NCBI RefSeq assembly: GCF_030116705.1
Contig: NZ_JAOTIK010000001.1
Location: 7,158,501 to 7,222,500, forward strand
Source: Streptomyces sp. ML-6
Lineage (GTDB): Bacteria > Actinomycetota > Actinomycetes > Streptomycetales > Streptomycetaceae
Reading direction: 5' to 3'
DNA length: 64,000 nucleotides
Shown here: positions 4,669-10,334 of the stretch, one piece after another
Layout: every line of letters starts with the position of its first letter
How positions within the stretch are numbered: position 1 is the stretch's first letter
Notes under the pieces: generated by a model
Database searches by the model: none
What the model saw: the letters and a program-made list of their open reading frames with translations, nothing else
Told to the model about the DNA's origin: nothing
Program-made: the position numbers and the translations under genes

Positions 4669-5514
4669 ATGCGGCACGACCGCGATACGGACAGGGCACT
4701 CGACGTACTGGTCTGTCTGGCCGGGGCGGACGAGGTCCGGCAAGCGGTGAGGGAGCGGATCGGGGTCGCGGAGCGGCCGAGCGGGCTCGTTCCCGAACTC
4801 CGCTGGACCAACCTGTCACGGCTCTCGGCCGACGCGCTGCCGGTCTCCGCCCGGCTGTGGGTCCTGGAGGAGGACCGGGCGGACCTGAACGAACTCCTCG
4901 TCCTGGCCGACGGGTTGCCCCCGGGGCTGAAGTCGGCGGTCCTCCACGGCGAATCCTTCGGGCCCGGCAGGAAGAAACCCGTCCCGCTGCCCGAGACGCT
5001 GCGGTACCGGCTCCGCACGGAAAACGCCGAGCAGCTTCCCGCAGCGGAACTGATCCCCGCGCTGCGGGCCGCGAGGACCATGCGCCAGGGCCGCCGGGCC
5101 GCCCGCTCGCTGGGCCGCGGGGACTGGCCGCGCGTCATCGCGGCCGACACCGAGCAGCCGCTGCCCGGGTACACGCGATGGGCGCTCGCGTTGCGGCCCG
5201 ACTGCCCACCGGTTCTGAGGGAACGCTTCTCCACCCACCCGGGCCACGCCCACCGGATGCGGCTCGCGGGCATCGTCGACGGCCCGGAGACCTACGTACG
5301 GGAGTGGCGTCCGGCCCGCACGGTGCTGTGCGTCCTCGACACCGGCCGCTGGGCGTTCCCCACCCGGCAGAGGGTGGCCGAGGACGTACTGCGGCCCCTG
5401 GTGCGCGACTCGTTGGGGGCGAACGTCGAGGCGTGGGCCGCCCTGGCGCAACTGCTGCCGACGTTCACGGGAACCGTCCCGGAGCTGATCGCGACCGCGG
5501 GCGCCCTCGCCTGA
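4669..5514 (+). CDS. Hypothetical protein (281 aa)
   Basis: ATG 4669 follows GGGGGGAGCGG; the frame is open upstream but without a ribosome site. The product, beginning MRHDRDTDRALDVLVCLAGA, is soluble, Leu/Arg/Ala-rich and mostly helical, with no signal peptide and no motif I recognise. Several stretches have the spacing of HEAT/armadillo-type helical repeats, but this is an impression only. Third-position GC is high throughout, so it is very probably expressed. It ends 27 bp before the tRNA-Trp-like gene that lies on the opposite strand. Confidence 0.7.
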   Translation: MRHDRDTDRALDVLVCLAGADEVRQAVRERIGVAERPSGLVPELRWTNLSRLSADALPVSARLWVLEEDRADLNELLVLADGLPPGLKSAVLHGESFGPGRKKPVPLPETLRYRLRTENAEQLPAAELIPALRAARTMRQGRRAARSLGRGDWPRVIAADTEQPLPGYTRWALALRPDCPPVLRERFSTHPGHAHRMRLAGIVDGPETYVREWRPARTVLCVLDTGRWAFPTRQRVAEDVLRPLVRDSLGANVEAWAALAQLLPTFTGTVPELIATAGALA

Positions 5515-5541
5515 GACCTGGCGGCGGGCGAGGGGAGGGAG

Positions 5542-5615
5542 GCGGGGCGGCTGGAATCGAACCAGCGTGTTCCGGTTTTGGAGACCGGTGCGACTGCCCC
5601 TGCGCTACGACCCCG
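5542..5615 (-). tRNA. Atypical tRNA-like gene, anticodon CCA (Trp)
   Basis: Read leftward: acceptor CGGGGTCG/CGCCCCG (seven pairs if one T is bulged), TA-GCGC D-arm, anticodon arm CCGGT-CTCCAAA-ACCGG giving anticodon CCA, variable AACAC, T-arm GCTGG-TTCGATT-CCAGC, discriminator C, no encoded CCA. The bulge in the acceptor and the D-arm shared with the two tRNA-like genes at 8755-8907 set it apart from a housekeeping tRNA-Trp. It may be a specialised or decaying tRNA. Confidence 0.7.
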
Positions 5616-5677
5616 CCCTGCGGTCGATCCTAGGCGAATCGTCCGGGCGGAAACAGCGTCCCCGTGCACGGGCACTC

Positions 5678-6170
5678 ATGACGAGCACGGGCGACGGAGC
5701 GCGGAGGGGCAGCCGGGACGGCGTACGGGGAGCGCGGGGGACGGCCGCCTGTTCCACGAGGCGCGGCACCTGGTCCGCCGGCACCTGTTCGTGGAGGAGG
5801 AACTGCGGGGCGACCCGGTGTTCACCCTGGCGGCGGAGGTCTCCATCAACCACGTGGCGATGGCCCGGCTCGGCACGGAGGCACTCCCGCTCAGGGACGG
5901 CAGACCGGTGGGCATCGACCCGCGCGAGATCCACGCACTCTACCGGGAGGACCTGCTGGCGCACGGCCTGGACCCGGTGGACCACCCGGTCTTCGTCGCC
6001 ACGGACATGTCGGTGCACGGCGAACTGCCGCGGATGGCGCACCCGTCGGTACCGGCACCCGCGCTGTGCGTCCGGCTCTCGCCCACCCCCGTGGCTCCGG
6101 TCCCGGAGTCTCCGGTCGGTCCCGGCGGGCTCGCGGGGCGGCCGGGACCCCGCCGAAGTTACGGGGTCCG
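5678..6170 (+). pseudogene. Degenerate gene of unknown family
   Basis: Between about 5740 and 6090 one rightward frame has clear coding character (almost every codon ends in G or C, plausible composition: RHLVRRHLFVEEELRGDPVF, later RPVGIDPREIHALYREDLLA). That frame has no usable start; the nearest ATG (5678) is in another frame, and downstream the frame runs without a stop straight through the antisense of the leucine-rich-repeat gene. I read it as a gene that has lost its start by a frameshift near 5735 and its natural end. The end given is approximate. No domain is recognised. Confidence 0.45.
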
Positions 6171-7355
6171 GGGCGGGGGCGTCCGGTGGACACTGCGTAC
6201 GGCCTCGACGTCCGCGGAGACCGCGGGCCGCGGCAGATGCGCGCTGAACGCGTCCAGCCGGTGCCGGACACTGGTCGCGATGCCCTTGCCGAGGACGAAG
6301 CGGGTCGGGGTGGCGGCCCGGGGCGCGGCGTCCAGGAGCCGGTGCGCCTCGCGGCTGCGCAGTCCGGTGTGGGAGAGGACGAGATGGGTGAGGCGGTGCT
6401 CCCGGGCCGCCAGGCTCTCGCCGATCGCGGTCGTGGCGGCGAGGTCGAGGCGGTTGTCCGCCGCGCCGAGGGTCCCGGCGGCCCGGACCCGGCCGAGGTC
6501 CAGGAGCTCGACGCCCGCGCCGGCCGCCGCGGCGACGAGCCGGGCGGCGGCCCGCGGCCCGACACCGTTGCTGGCGACGGAGAGCCGGGCGGTACGGCCG
6601 TACGGGGCGCGTTCCAGGGCGTCGGCCAGGAGCAGCGCCCCGTCGTCGCCCAACCGGGCTGCGGACGCGTACAGTTCGTCGACCGCCCCGGCGGCGAGCA
6701 GTGCGGCCAGCGGGGCCGCGCCGGTACGGCCGAGCGGGTTTCCGCCGACGAAGAGCCGCTCCACCCGGCGCCCGGAGGCGACGGCCCCGAGCAGGGCCTC
6801 GGCGAGCACCGCGAGGCCCGCCGGGTCCAGGCCGGTCTGCACCAGGTCGAGGGTGCGCAGCCCGGACGCGGCGGCGACGAGGTCCGCCGCGGCCCGTCCG
6901 CCGCCCGTGCCCAGCGGGTTGCGTTTGAGCCAGACCCCGCTGACGACGTGTTCGGAGGCGCGCAGGCTGTCCGCGATCCGGCACGCGCCGCCCGCGGTGA
7001 TGCCGTTGCAGCCCAGGTAGAGGGTCTCGATGCCCGCTCCGACGGTCCGCTCGGCGACGTCCGTCGCGCCGTCGTCGCCGAGCCCGTCGGTGCCCAGGAG
7101 CAGGTGCCGGACCCGGGCCGGGGCCGCGGTGTCGCCGAGGGCCTCGGCGATCAGGGCGGCTCCTTCGGGGCCGAGGGCCTGCTTGCACAGGTCGAGCCGG
7201 CCGTCGGGCATCGCGGTCCCGGCCGGGAAGTCGAGCCGTCGGTCGGTGACCGCGCCGCCGCGCAGCCAGTCGATCAGCGGGCCGAGGTCGGCGATCGAGC
7301 GGGGCAGGACGTGGGGGACACCCGCGAAGGGCGCGTCCCCGGCGGGACCGGTCAC
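6159..7355 (-). CDS. Leucine-rich-repeat protein (RNase-inhibitor type)
   Basis: 398 residues from GTG 7355, which overlaps the TGA of the upstream SDR gene by 4 bp (GTGA), so translation is coupled. The sequence is a run of about ten LRR units with the pattern L..L.L..N.LG..G...LA, e.g. VRHLLLGTDGLGDDG, IETLYLGCNGITAGG, LRTLDLVQTGLDPAG, as in ribonuclease inhibitor and NLR receptors. No signal peptide or other domain is present, so it is a cytoplasmic scaffold or binding protein. Bacterial LRR proteins of this shape are rare in Streptomyces. Its partner in the operon is a zinc-ribbon SDR. Confidence 0.8.
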   Translation of the reverse strand: MTGPAGDAPFAGVPHVLPRSIADLGPLIDWLRGGAVTDRRLDFPAGTAMPDGRLDLCKQALGPEGAALIAEALGDTAAPARVRHLLLGTDGLGDDGATDVAERTVGAGIETLYLGCNGITAGGACRIADSLRASEHVVSGVWLKRNPLGTGGGRAAADLVAAASGLRTLDLVQTGLDPAGLAVLAEALLGAVASGRRVERLFVGGNPLGRTGAAPLAALLAAGAVDELYASAARLGDDGALLLADALERAPYGRTARLSVASNGVGPRAAARLVAAAAGAGVELLDLGRVRAAGTLGAADNRLDLAATTAIGESLAAREHRLTHLVLSHTGLRSREAHRLLDAAPRAATPTRFVLGKGIATSVRHRLDAFSAHLPRPAVSADVEAVRSVHRTPPPRTP

Positions 7356-8707
7356 CACGCCACCTCCCGGTAGTCCTTGAGGAAGACGCCCGACACGGGT
7401 GAACCCGCCTCGCCCCGCACGATCGGGTCGTACACCCGCGCCGCCCCGTCCACGATGTCCAGCGGGGTGCGGAAGCCCTCGGCGGCGATCCGGTTCTTCT
7501 TCGGCACCGGGTTCTCGTCGGTGATCCAGCCGGTGTCGACGCTGCACATGTGGATGCCCCGCGCGGCGAGTTCGGGGCCACTGGTACGGGTGAGCATGTT
7601 CAGCGCGGCCTTCGCCATGTTGGTGTGCGGATGCCCGGCGGTCTTGCGCCGCACGGCGAAACGGCCCTCCACGGCCGTGACGTTGACGACGTACCGGTTC
7701 GGCCGGGGCGAGGCGAGCAGCAGCGGCAGCAGCCGGTCCACCAGCAGGGCGGGCGCGAGGGCGTTGACGAGCTGGGTCTCCAGCAGCTCGGCCGGGTCCA
7801 GCTCGCCGATCCGGGCGGACCAGGAGTTCACCGGGGCGGGGTCGGGCAGCAGTCCCGCCTCGTCCGCCTCCGCGAGGACCAGCGCGAGCGCACCCGAGGC
7901 GGCGGGGGCCGCCAGGGCCCGCATCGGCGCGTAGCCGGGGGCGGCCCAGGCGCCCTCGGGGAGCGCGCCGGTCTCACCGGCGGCGAGCAGCGCGTACGAC
8001 TCGGGCGGGCGGCGCACGGTCTGGGCGGCGTTGTTGACGAGGATGTCCAACGGCTCGCCGTCCCGGTGGAGCCGTTCGCACAGCCCCAGGACCTGGCGCG
8101 GGTCGCGCAGGTCGACGGCGACGACGGTGAGCCGGTCGAGCCACGCCCCGCTGCCGGGCTCCGCACGGAACCGGCGCAGGGTGTCCTGCGGGAAGCGGGA
8201 GGTGACGAGGAGTTCGGCACCGTCGCGGAGCATCATCAGCGCCAGCTGGAAGCCGATTTTGACCCGGCCGCCGGTGAGCAGCACCCGGCGGCCGGTGAGA
8301 TCGGTGGACAGGGCGCGACGGGAGGTGTGGTCGGCGGCGCAGTCCGGGCAGAGCGCGTGGTAGAACGCGTCGACCCGCCGGTAGAACGACTTGCAGACGT
8401 AACAGCGCCGGGGCCGGTGGAAGACCCCGCCGCCCGTCCCGCTCCCGCCGGACAGCGGTGCGTCCTCGCGCCGGGCGAGCGCTCCGGTCGCGGTGGCGGC
8501 GACGACCGCGGCGTCGGCCTCGGCGCAGGCGTCGCTGCGGGCCTTGCGGCGGCGCGTGCGGCCGTCGCGGGTGAAGGACGCGGCGACCTGCTCGGCGCGC
8601 AGGCGCACCGGGTCGTCGACGGGCAGGGCGCGCAGCTTCCCGATCGTCCGGTGGAAGGCCGCCAGTTCCTCGTCGCCGAGTCGTTCCTCGTCACCGGTCC
8701 GCACCAT
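7352..8707 (-). CDS. SDR-family protein with N-terminal zinc ribbon
   Basis: 451 residues; ATG 8707 has a strong upstream GGAGGCGGAGGGGG. Residues 1-100 are a polar helical region, followed by a zinc-ribbon-like pair CYVC...CPDC (about 106-128) and then a Rossmann SDR domain with nucleotide motif LTGGRVKIGF and NNAA. The region after NVTAVEG is HPHTNMAKAALNML: the usual YxxxK Tyr is replaced by Thr, so a normal oxidoreductase reaction is doubtful. Similar SDR-like proteins with VNSW and DTGWITDE motifs also occur in plants and fungi (family memory, not tested). It forms an operon with the LRR gene and lies just downstream of two tRNA-like genes on the same strand. Confidence 0.8.
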   Translation of the reverse strand: MVRTGDEERLGDEELAAFHRTIGKLRALPVDDPVRLRAEQVAASFTRDGRTRRRKARSDACAEADAAVVAATATGALARREDAPLSGGSGTGGGVFHRPRRCYVCKSFYRRVDAFYHALCPDCAADHTSRRALSTDLTGRRVLLTGGRVKIGFQLALMMLRDGAELLVTSRFPQDTLRRFRAEPGSGAWLDRLTVVAVDLRDPRQVLGLCERLHRDGEPLDILVNNAAQTVRRPPESYALLAAGETGALPEGAWAAPGYAPMRALAAPAASGALALVLAEADEAGLLPDPAPVNSWSARIGELDPAELLETQLVNALAPALLVDRLLPLLLASPRPNRYVVNVTAVEGRFAVRRKTAGHPHTNMAKAALNMLTRTSGPELAARGIHMCSVDTGWITDENPVPKKNRIAAEGFRTPLDIVDGAARVYDPIVRGEAGSPVSGVFLKDYREVAW

Positions 8708-8754
8708 GCCCCCTCCGCCTCCGTGCCCCTCGTCGCCCGCCCCGGCGGTCCCGG

Positions 8755-8827
8755 TGGTCCCGGCCGGATTCGAACCGGCGTGTTCCCTTCGAGCAGGAGG
8801 GGGCGACTGCCTCTGCGCTACAGGACC
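8755..8827 (-). tRNA. Atypical tRNA-like gene, anticodon probably GCT (Ser)
   Basis: Acceptor GGTCCTG/CGGGACC pairs fully; TA-GCGC D-arm, anticodon arm CCCTC-CTGCTCG-AAGGG (one C-A mismatch next to the loop), variable AACAC, T-arm GCCGG-TTCGAAT-CCGGC, discriminator A. Anticodon GCT would mean serine, but serine tRNAs need a long variable arm and this has five bases. D-arm, variable and T-loop match its neighbour and the Trp-like gene. Confidence 0.65.
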
Positions 8828-8833
8828 GGGCTG

Positions 8834-8907
8834 CCCGGACGGTCGGATTCGAACCGACGTGTTCACGACTTGGCAAGTCGGTGCGTCTGCCTCTGCGCTA
8901 CGTCCGG
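8834..8907 (-). tRNA. Atypical tRNA-like gene, anticodon probably GCC (Gly)
   Basis: Acceptor CCGGACG/CGTCCGG pairs fully, TA-GCGC D-arm, loop TTGCCAA giving anticodon GCC, T-arm GTCGG-TTCGAAT-CCGAC, discriminator G, no encoded CCA. The anticodon stem closes only if one C is bulged (AC[C]GAC/GTCGT). It is 6 bp from the Ser-like gene and transcribed toward the SDR/LRR operon. Confidence 0.65.
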
Positions 8908-9080
8908 ACAGTGCCGATGATCATACCGACGGTGTGCCGGGCGCGGGCCGGGCGGGTTCCCGGCGGCACCGTCCGGCCGCTCGGCGGTGTGCGAGGCGCA
9001 TTACGCTGGACACGGCAGCTCGACGCGGTACGGAGCCCTTCGCGTCCGTGCGGAGGCCCGTGTGCCCTCCGGGAGGCATG

Positions 9081-10334
9081 ATGAGCCAGCAGCCGGTGCT
9101 CCTGCCCTACACCGACCCGGCCTTCGTGGCGGACCCCTTCCCGCTCTACCGGCAGTTGCGCGACGACGGCCCGGTACGGCGCGCCGTCATCGCGGGCGGC
9201 CTGGAGGCATGGCTGGTCACCCGGTACGAGGACGGCCTGGCGGCCCTGTCCGACCCACGCCTGAGCAGCGACCTCCGCGACGCTTCGGACCCCCGGCTGG
9301 TCGAACTGCTGCCCGCCACGGACCGCGAGTCGGCGCTGCGCAACATGCTCCGCTCCGACCCTCCCGACCACACCCGGCTGCGCCGCCTGGTCTCCGGGGC
9401 GTTCACCGCGCGCAGGGTGGCCGGACTGCGGCCCCGCGTCCAGGAGATCGCCGACCGGCTGCTCGACGAGATCGGACCGGACGGCCGCGCCGACCTCGTC
9501 GAGAGCTTCGCCCTGCCGCTGCCGGTCACCGTGATCGGCGAACTGCTCGGCGTACCGGCCGCCGACCGGGACGACTTCCGGCGGTGGAGCGACGACATGA
9601 TCCTGCGGGGTGCCGAGCGGCCGGACCCGGCCCGCACGGACCGGGCGTGGCGGCGGATGCGCGGTTATCTGACCGGACTCCTCGAACAGAAGCGGGCCCG
9701 CCCCGAGGACGACCTGCTCAGCGCGCTGATCGCGGCGCGGGACGAGGAGGGGCGACTCGACGAGGACGAGCTGATCGCCATGGCCTTCCTGCTGCTGGTG
9801 GCCGGTTACATCACCACCGTCAACCTGATCGGCAGTGGCATCGCGGCCCTGCTCGCCCACCCCGACCAGCTGCGGGCGCTGCGGGACGATCCGGCGCTGC
9901 TGCCGGGCGCGATCGAGGAGTTCCTGCGGTACGACGGTCCGGTCAACCCGGGCATCGCCCGGTTCGCGCGCGAGGAGGTCACCATCGCCGGCGTGACCGT
10001 GCCGCGCGGGGCGACGGTGCTGATCGCGTCAGCCATCGCCGACCGCGACCCGGAGCGCTTCCCCGACCCCGACCGCCTGGACATCTCCCGGCAGGACAAC
10101 GCCCACCTCGCGTTCGGGCACGGCATCCACTACTGCCTGGGGGCTCCGCTGGCCCGGCTGGAGGGCCAGGTCGCCATCGGCACCGTGCTGCGCCGTCTGC
10201 CCGGCCTCGCCCTGGCCGTGCCGCCCGGAGAGCTGCGTTGGCGGCCGGGAGGTCTGCGCGGTCCCGAGCACCTGCCCGTCACCTTCATCGCCGACGCCGC
10301 GGCCCCCGGCGGCGTACCGGAAGCCGTCCGATGA
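9081..10334 (+). CDS. Cytochrome P450
   Basis: 417 residues; ATG 9081 lies 4 nt after GGGAGG (an adjacent ATG at 9078 is the alternative). All structural P450 motifs are visible: K-helix EEFLR (ExxR), heme loop FGHGIHYCLG with the Cys ligand, and an actinobacterial start YTDPAFVADPFPLYRQLR. The I-helix reads LLLVAGYITTVNLIGSG where class I bacterial P450s have AGHETT: the conserved acid is replaced by Ile, which affects proton delivery and suggests an altered reaction. Needs a ferredoxin and reductase; none is adjacent. It is divergent from the tRNA-like genes. Substrate unknown. Confidence 0.9.
   Translation: MSQQPVLLPYTDPAFVADPFPLYRQLRDDGPVRRAVIAGGLEAWLVTRYEDGLAALSDPRLSSDLRDASDPRLVELLPATDRESALRNMLRSDPPDHTRLRRLVSGAFTARRVAGLRPRVQEIADRLLDEIGPDGRADLVESFALPLPVTVIGELLGVPAADRDDFRRWSDDMILRGAERPDPARTDRAWRRMRGYLTGLLEQKRARPEDDLLSALIAARDEEGRLDEDELIAMAFLLLVAGYITTVNLIGSGIAALLAHPDQLRALRDDPALLPGAIEEFLRYDGPVNPGIARFAREEVTIAGVTVPRGATVLIASAIADRDPERFPDPDRLDISRQDNAHLAFGHGIHYCLGAPLARLEGQVAIGTVLRRLPGLALAVPPGELRWRPGGLRGPEHLPVTFIADAAAPGGVPEAVR

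Follow-up and report, generated by a model that had tools for sequence, protein, structure and literature searches.

Three tRNA-like genes, with Gly-, Ser- and Trp-type anticodons, flank a two-gene unit coding for a short-chain dehydrogenase/reductase (SDR) and a leucine-rich repeat (LRR) protein in a 64,000-nucleotide stretch of the Streptomyces sp. ML-6 genome (contig NZ_JAOTIK010000001.1, positions 7,158,501 to 7,222,500; hereafter the window). Sequence comparison showed that these predicted RNAs belong to a family with a conserved body, a fast-changing anticodon and conserved neighbours. A normal tRNA has an anticodon tied to the amino acid it carries; in this family the anticodon changes fast on a constant body, in RNAs linked to proteins without a known part in translation, and this is seen in several actinobacterial families. 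The findings suggest that the tRNA look-alikes may serve some purpose other than ordinary protein synthesis. Part of the arrangement is already in print: our search of the main texts of open-licence papers found no description of the family apart from PMC9262613, the report of tRNA-Asp-AUC (see below), and no system composed of these parts.

The tRNA-like body and its acceptor stem

ARAGORN and Rfam agree on all three tRNA-like genes of the window, which are thus real, as the original prediction had it, and lie on the minus strand (Table 1). They share the D-arm, the variable region AACAC and the T-loop, the Trp-type gene differing by one base in the D-loop and in the T-loop. All three fit the cloverleaf of ordinary tRNAs, with Rfam RF00005 scores above the gathering score of 29 bits. 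The original prediction had taken high tRNA scores, as of ordinary isoacceptors, as the sign that would speak against it; the scores obtained are low, yet above gathering, and rank within the six lowest of the 71 Rfam tRNA matches above the gathering score in the own genome. The window genes are therefore weak, not failing, tRNAs. RNA families other than tRNA gave no match at the Rfam gathering score at the tRNA-like genes of the window and five other loci. The own genome also has, on its second contig, two identical odd tRNA-Gly(TCC) genes (G000:C2:314748-314817 and 365806-365875; 41.3 bits).

The RNA set comprised 264 hits, corresponding to 210 distinct sequences, 200 of them with a normal anticodon arm; there were 110 distinct anticodon arms. 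A covariance model (R1) was made from 28 tRNA-likes, those of the window and of 11 further loci. It gave at least 70 bits to 244 of the 264 aligned family hits, and the lowest members scored 49 bits (20 of 264 were below 70). The window genes scored 86.3 (Gly), 82.1 (Ser) and 80.5 bits (Trp), all three being among the model-building sequences. Genuine tRNAs of the own genome reached at most 58 bits at the loci tested; ordinary-looking Pro and Arg tRNAs of other actinobacterial genera reached 62-73 bits, the Arg-GCG kind 69 to 73. No R1 score separates all family members from ordinary tRNAs.

Base 21 is G in all 210 distinct tRNA-likes. Ordinary elongator tRNAs have A21, which a simple script read in 30 of 33 distinct tRNAs of the own genome, with G in one; the list of own genuine tRNAs used for this and for the arm and identity comparisons is partial. 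The canonical T-loop TTCGAAT was found in 186 of the 210 by fixed-frame parsing and in 11 more with an offset of one base. Changes on both sides of a helix pair occurred in 427 cells, compared with 138 in shuffles. Counted by pair, 15 of 20 showed such two-sided change, little more than the 13.5 in shuffles; covariation was counted on an alignment fitted to R1. Single-sequence folding of six RNAs gave unremarkable z-scores (-0.8 to -2.0) and did not always recover the cloverleaf, so the case for the structure rests on covariation.

The acceptor bulge predicted for the Trp-type gene is present in the window and also in 43 of the 50 distinct sequences with a CCA anticodon. Sorted by place, bulged acceptors were found in 44 of 58 downstream genes and in 23 of 140 upstream genes. 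The count of 43/50 was made by anticodon; a count of 51/53 for bulged Trp-type sequences is circular, the 53 having been chosen partly by poor pairing. The Ser anticodon without a long variable arm was likewise borne out, whereas the bulge described in an anticodon stem turned out to be mismatches, C27.U43 in the Gly-type and C31.A39 in the Ser-type gene.

By the identity rules for acceptor and variable arm, tRNA-Ala has G3:U70, tRNA-Ser a long arm, tRNA-Gly U73, tRNA-Trp G73 and tRNA-Cys U73. The genuine own-genome tRNAs inspected have G3:U70 in Ala, U73 in Gly and Cys, and G73 in Trp. Among the distinct tRNA-likes the element fitting the anticodon was found in 3 of 37 Ala-type (G3:U70), 0 of 14 Ser-type (long arm), 2 of 31 Gly-type (U73), 5 of 50 Trp-type (G73) and 4 of 13 Cys-type sequences (U73), where N73 is nominal in bulged acceptors and its letter is unreliable in the 11 sequences parsed with a one-base shift. 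Judged by these rules, acceptor identity appears mostly mismatched to the anticodon, and a minority fits.

Anticodon swapping

The anticodons of the 200 RNAs with a normal arm represent nine amino acids (Trp 50, Ala 37, Gly 31, Glu 26, Asp 24, Ser 14, Cys 13, Arg 3 and Val 2), the remaining eleven having none. The codons matched are GNN plus AGC, UGC, UGG and a few Arg codons. When the tRNA-likes of 35 disjoint closest locus pairs were set side by side (56 comparisons), the amino acid differed in 37 and agreed in 19. Differing sites amounted to 0.189 in the anticodon arm as against 0.077 in the body (Wilcoxon p = 1e-5 over the 56 comparisons, a value that counts related loci as independent). 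With the 10 comparisons having at least 8 body differences left out, as possibly not true counterparts, the amino acid differed in 27 of 46; among comparisons with identical bodies it differed in 10 of 15. An anticodon was repeated within a locus at one of 58 loci, 7.8 being expected (P = 0.0005). Seven distinct RNAs carry one of two distinct arms that match the Ala-GGC or the Asp arm of the own genome at every one of 17 nt.

Linkage to a pseudo-SDR

An SDR at least 75% identical to that of the window is encoded in 18 of 150 Streptomyces genomes, the own genome included. ARAGORN placed tRNA genes within about 1.5 kb at 12 of these 18 loci and at none of 12 other SDR loci (paralogues or partial matches). 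Two of the six remaining loci (L069 and L070) have decayed tRNA-like pairs of 26 to 40 bits. The converse search found an R1 hit of at least 77 bits in 42 of 392 Streptomyces genomes, with an SDR homologue at the locus in all 42. Of these homologues 39 are full length and 3 partial, and at one locus 9 kb lie between SDR and tRNA-like. The cut-off of 77 bits was picked after inspecting the results; 12 of the 42 loci had supplied sequences to R1 and 30 had not. Just below it G172 (76.6 bits) is linked, and lower scores are a mixture of linked and unlinked loci. The recurrence in other genomes that the original prediction had set beforehand as its test was thus found, and the linkage of tRNA-likes and SDR, as read from sequence, is strong. 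Other module genes at the 42 loci were less constant: full-length LRR was found at 20, AAA at 18 and vWA at 16, absence meaning that none was seen within the stretch examined.

The SDR fold is supported by an AlphaFold2 model (mean predicted local distance difference test score, pLDDT, 79.7) with Foldseek matches to FabG-type folds. In an alignment with 30 relatives cysteines 102, 105, 120 and 123 are invariant. The classical hallmark of SDR enzymes, a catalytic Ser with YxxxK, is missing from the window SDR family: Ala345 and Thr362, invariant in the 30 aligned sequences, stand at the catalytic Ser and Tyr positions, which were assigned by alignment to SiaM. The protein had been predicted to be catalytically altered, and this agrees with its being a pseudo-SDR, which among the predicted module proteins is the most constant partner of the tRNA-likes.

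A paralogue of the pseudo-SDR, about 48% identical, is found in the own genome (L079, G000:C1:7253052-7254467), with no tRNA in 17 kb around it. SDR matches of either kind, pseudo-SDR or L079-type paralogue, occur in 131 of the 150 genus genomes.

The complete module

Complete loci have upstream tRNA-likes, SDR and LRR, followed by a convergent AAA ATPase (607 aa) and a vWA/HExxH protein; next come a Trp-type tRNA-like, on the same strand as the SDR, and gene X. The upstream tRNA-likes number 0 to 5, with two at 51 of 84 non-redundant loci. The AAA protein of complete loci matches Pfam AAA_5, and the vWA protein has DTSGS and HExxH motifs. Catenulispora-type loci have all genes on a single strand, in the order vWA, AAA, one 83-nt tRNA-like, SDR, LRR. 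All seven such loci (L222-L228) have the tRNA-like, which lacks a 7-nt anticodon loop, and six have the SDR (in L228 none was found in the next 3.2 kb).

A genome scan with an AAA alignment confirmed 114 loci, and the best 80 of these were surveyed. SDR and tRNA-like were both present at 50, neither at 28, tRNA-like alone at 2 and SDR alone at 0. The two with tRNA-like alone are L312, at a contig end, and L291, probably the same record as L228; the 28 with neither include a 3-kb contig (L251) and three stretches of less than 9 kb (L300, L303, L319). In a quick tree the 52 tRNA-linked AAA proteins fall in one branch, which spans Streptomycetaceae, Catenulisporaceae, Actinospicaceae and Pseudonocardiaceae. 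The branch also includes three rows without a tRNA-like, namely a 3-kb contig, and L278 and L279, which have no SDR, LRR or tRNA-like in the stretch examined. AAA-vWA pairs without SDR or tRNA-like (L293, L296-L311, L313, L314, L316-L321) lie outside this branch; unlinked pairs were found in Nonomuraea, Actinomadura, Embleya, Yinghuangia and some Streptomyces.

Bacterial Ro60 (Rsr) is a vWA-containing protein linked to YrlA, a tRNA-like Y RNA. In contrast to YrlA, the RNAs of this family are almost entire tRNAs and occur in sets whose anticodons differ, and no TROVE/Ro60 match was found by Pfam at E 0.001 among the scanned proteins of the window, L065, L066 and L067. The pairing of AAA and vWA in the complete loci resembles that of the vWA-MoxR ternary conflict systems of multicellular actinobacteria (Kaur et al. 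2020, PMC7159879). Within the available text of that paper tRNA and LRR occur in the references only and SDR nowhere, whereas here tRNA-likes and pseudo-SDR are the constant partners.

tRNA-Asp-AUC and a second type

According to the accessible text of Chen et al. (2022, PMC9262613), tRNA-Asp-AUC of Streptomyces violaceusniger SPC6 was sequenced from cells, in which its abundance is about that of tRNA-Asp-GUC. It adjoins a conserved four-gene cluster including LRR and MoxR-like ATPase genes, and an ancestral integrative element was proposed for it; that text does not mention the family, the SDR or the swapping of anticodons. Using a pattern from the published primers, we located tRNA-Asp-AUC in 2 of 392 genomes. 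Like the family, it has the D-arm GTAGCGCAGAGG..CGC with G21 and a similar T-loop, and it lies directly upstream of an LRR gene whose product is 42-44% identical to the window LRR. Unlike the family, it has one anticodon and the GGUCG loop subtype in place of GGCAG, and it is interpreted as a decoding tRNA. No match to SDR, AAA or vWA was found around it in 19.0 and 14.0 kb of the two genomes. Its R1 score of 62 bits lies within the 62-73 bits also reached by Pro and Arg tRNAs of ordinary appearance in other actinobacteria, so that score alone would not place it.

Two loci outside Streptomyces (L351 and L352, in two genomes), which we call type II, have tRNA-like, SDR and LRR2 in that order. 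In L324 and L325 tRNA-Asp(ATC) precedes LRR2, and in a third genome outside Streptomyces (L356) a GGUCG-subtype tRNA-like precedes LRR2 without SDR. The window, L351/L352 and L324/L325 have in common that a tRNA-like whose D-arm has G21 forms one same-strand unit with a gene of the same LRR family. Since the GGUCG subtype stands upstream of SDR and LRR2 in L351 and L352, there are two divergent types with one layout, and by these sequence features tRNA-Asp-AUC goes best with the second.

Further tRNA-likes, mostly with a GGU-type D-loop, were found in Streptomyces (L148-L156, L357-L359) and in one genome besides (L353); the stretches examined there gave no match to SDR or LRR. Apart from the LRR of L324/L325, of which the gene caller missed the L325 copy, no gene-caller cluster is common to more than two of eleven GGU-loop tRNA-like loci.

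Possible function of the tRNA-likes

Our preferred reading, held tentatively and with rather less than even confidence, is that of a dedicated tRNA-like module whose SDR-bound RNAs would be baits or decoys for anticodon-directed attack. In its favour we count the linkage, also at the type II loci, the faster change of the anticodon arm than of the body, the scarcity of repeated anticodons, the arms identical to host arms, the ill-fitting acceptor elements and the covariation. Its more specific form, to which we give guarded credence as one possibility, is a new kind of module for immunity or stress, located on the chromosome, whose panel of baits with hypervariable anticodons, held by the pseudo-SDR, would trigger a response by the AAA and vWA-protease proteins. 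The SDR, perhaps with the LRR protein, would hold the constant tRNA body. The exposed anticodon arms would mimic those of host tRNAs that phages or competitors attack, or once attacked, with anticodon-directed nucleases or other toxins aimed at tRNA, and the tRNA-likes would serve as decoys or tripwires. The AAA / vWA-protease pair would be the response arm in complete loci, and the fast anticodon swapping would mirror a shifting set of attackers. Protein binding, lack of charging and the bait or decoy role are all what we infer from sequence comparison. If true, the reading would mean a further class of tRNA-like RNA acting in regulation or defence and a function for a pseudo-SDR family widespread in actinobacteria, and it would put the published tRNA-Asp-AUC in a new light.

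Elements of such a mechanism have been described in other systems, as far as the accessible texts go. SDR5C1 in human mitochondrial RNase P is an SDR in a tRNA-binding platform near the anticodon loop (PMC8437803), and so offers a precedent for an SDR as a tRNA platform touching the anticodon loop; it binds NADH, has TRMT10C and PRORP as partners, and shares only the SDR fold with the module protein. PARIS and phage-encoded resistant tRNAs exemplify an arms race between a tRNA nuclease and variant tRNAs over the anticodon stem-loop (PMC11455837). There the variant tRNAs are phage-encoded, whereas here they are chromosomal and linked to host genes, with no nuclease known.

Several observations weigh against the bait or decoy reading. 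G199 (L148) has a tRNA-like of 76.6 bits with no SDR in 15.5 kb around it. AAA and vWA were each unseen at 22 of the 42 high-scoring loci, so the supposed response arm would be dispensable. Exact copies of own-genome arms account for only 2 of the 110 distinct arms, and U33 is retained in 188 of the 200 RNAs with a normal arm, as decoding would also need. No nuclease was recognised in the module. In a PADLOC defence search the AAA protein had only weak matches, of ATPase type, and assignment to a known defence family was set aside. The SDR had no matches in phages and four distant ones in plasmids, on which a mobile origin of the module was rejected. Finally, tRNA-Asp-AUC was reported to decode GAU and to raise the expression of a GAT-rich reporter (PMC9262613, accessible text).

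Because of this published decoding result, auxiliary translation tRNAs, which would be expressed and charged and whose swaps would tune the decoding of certain codons, stay a live rival, unlikely as we consider it. The expression and abundance of tRNA-Asp-AUC, its family-like D-arm with G21 and the LRR relative downstream fit this rival, as do the conserved U33 and some loops identical to genuine loops. It is at odds with acceptor identity elements that mostly mismatch the anticodon, with the bulged acceptor of most CCA-type RNAs and with the Catenulispora RNAs lacking a normal anticodon loop, and it leaves the pseudo-SDR linkage unexplained. The Catenulispora form is also what tells against an antisense or sensor role, in which the anticodon loop of an uncharged mimic would pair with codons at the ribosome or with a target RNA, for instance as a starvation or stalling signal; such a role, to which we give a rather low chance, would suit the concentration of change in the anticodon arm rather than the acceptor and the differing anticodons per locus.

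That the tRNA-likes supply amino-acyl groups to some non-ribosomal reaction of the module proteins seems quite improbable. The limited amino acid set (A, G, D, E, S, C, W, rarely R and V) and the constantly adjoining SDR would agree with it. Nevertheless, 34 of 37 Ala-type RNAs lack G3:U70 and all 14 Ser-type RNAs lack the long arm, so that charging with the amino acid of the anticodon is not expected by the identity rules; no aminoacyl-transferase or ligase was recognised by Pfam among the scanned proteins, and the SDR has no catalytic pair. The probability that the genes are ordinary tRNA genes or decaying leftovers of integrating elements is close to negligible. The ancestral-element proposal (PMC9262613, accessible text), the decayed copies at L069 and L070 and the loss of module genes at many loci would favour leftovers; this explanation was rejected on the covariation, the invariant G21, the linkage across four families and an anticodon repertoire with repeats nearly absent.

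The non-ribosomal role put forward in the original prediction thus gains indirect support from the anticodon swaps on a constant body, the misfit acceptors, the Trp bulge and the Catenulispora loop, and the reported decoding of GAU by tRNA-Asp-AUC counts against it. It is partly supported: among the roles named there, decoy or bait would fit best and amino-acyl donor worst; a guide role is conceivable.

The window locus

The predicted SDR-LRR operon was confirmed: both genes are on the strand of the tRNA-like genes, which flank them, and the LRR frame overlaps the SDR stop (Table 1). No AAA gene matched within the first 25 kb of the window, and of vWA there is a remnant, intact relatives of which are found at L062, L066 and L067. 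The AAA and vWA pair of the complete loci is thus incomplete here, and by comparison the window copy of the module has lost AAA and most of vWA. Gene X had no Pfam match; its structure was modelled confidently, without a fold match.

Table 1. Features of the module in the window (positions counted from the first base of the window)
Feature	Position	Strand	Evidence and remarks
Gly-type tRNA-like (anticodon GCC), distal upstream gene	8834-8907	-	ARAGORN; Rfam RF00005 49.9 bits; called at 8833-8907; acceptor CCGGACG/CGTCCGG
Ser-type tRNA-like (anticodon GCT), proximal upstream gene	8755-8827	-	ARAGORN; Rfam 36.4 bits; called at 8753-8827; acceptor GGTCCTG/CGGGACC
Zn-ribbon pseudo-SDR, 451 aa	7352-8707	-	Pfam PF00106/PF13561; AlphaFold2 model and Foldseek
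LRR protein resembling ribonuclease inhibitor, 399 aa	6159-7358	-	PDB sequence search
vWA/HExxH gene remnant, 330 bases, residues 123-232 of 486	5749-6078	+	tblastn
Trp-type tRNA-like (anticodon CCA), bulged extended acceptor stem	5541-5617	-	ARAGORN; Rfam 43.5 bits; called at 5541-5615
Gene X, all-helical protein adjoining complete module	4669-5511	+	start codon assigned by hand

A fourth ARAGORN call, tRNA-Glu at 7941-8015 on the plus strand, lies inside the SDR reading frame without an Rfam match and was taken as false. A promoter and terminator scan of 5400-9200 found none, a result that is weakly informative for a high-GC genome. At one of the loci with an intact vWA gene, L066, an Rfam ASdes match (L066:16120-16187, plus strand) is antisense to the adjoining desaturase gene.

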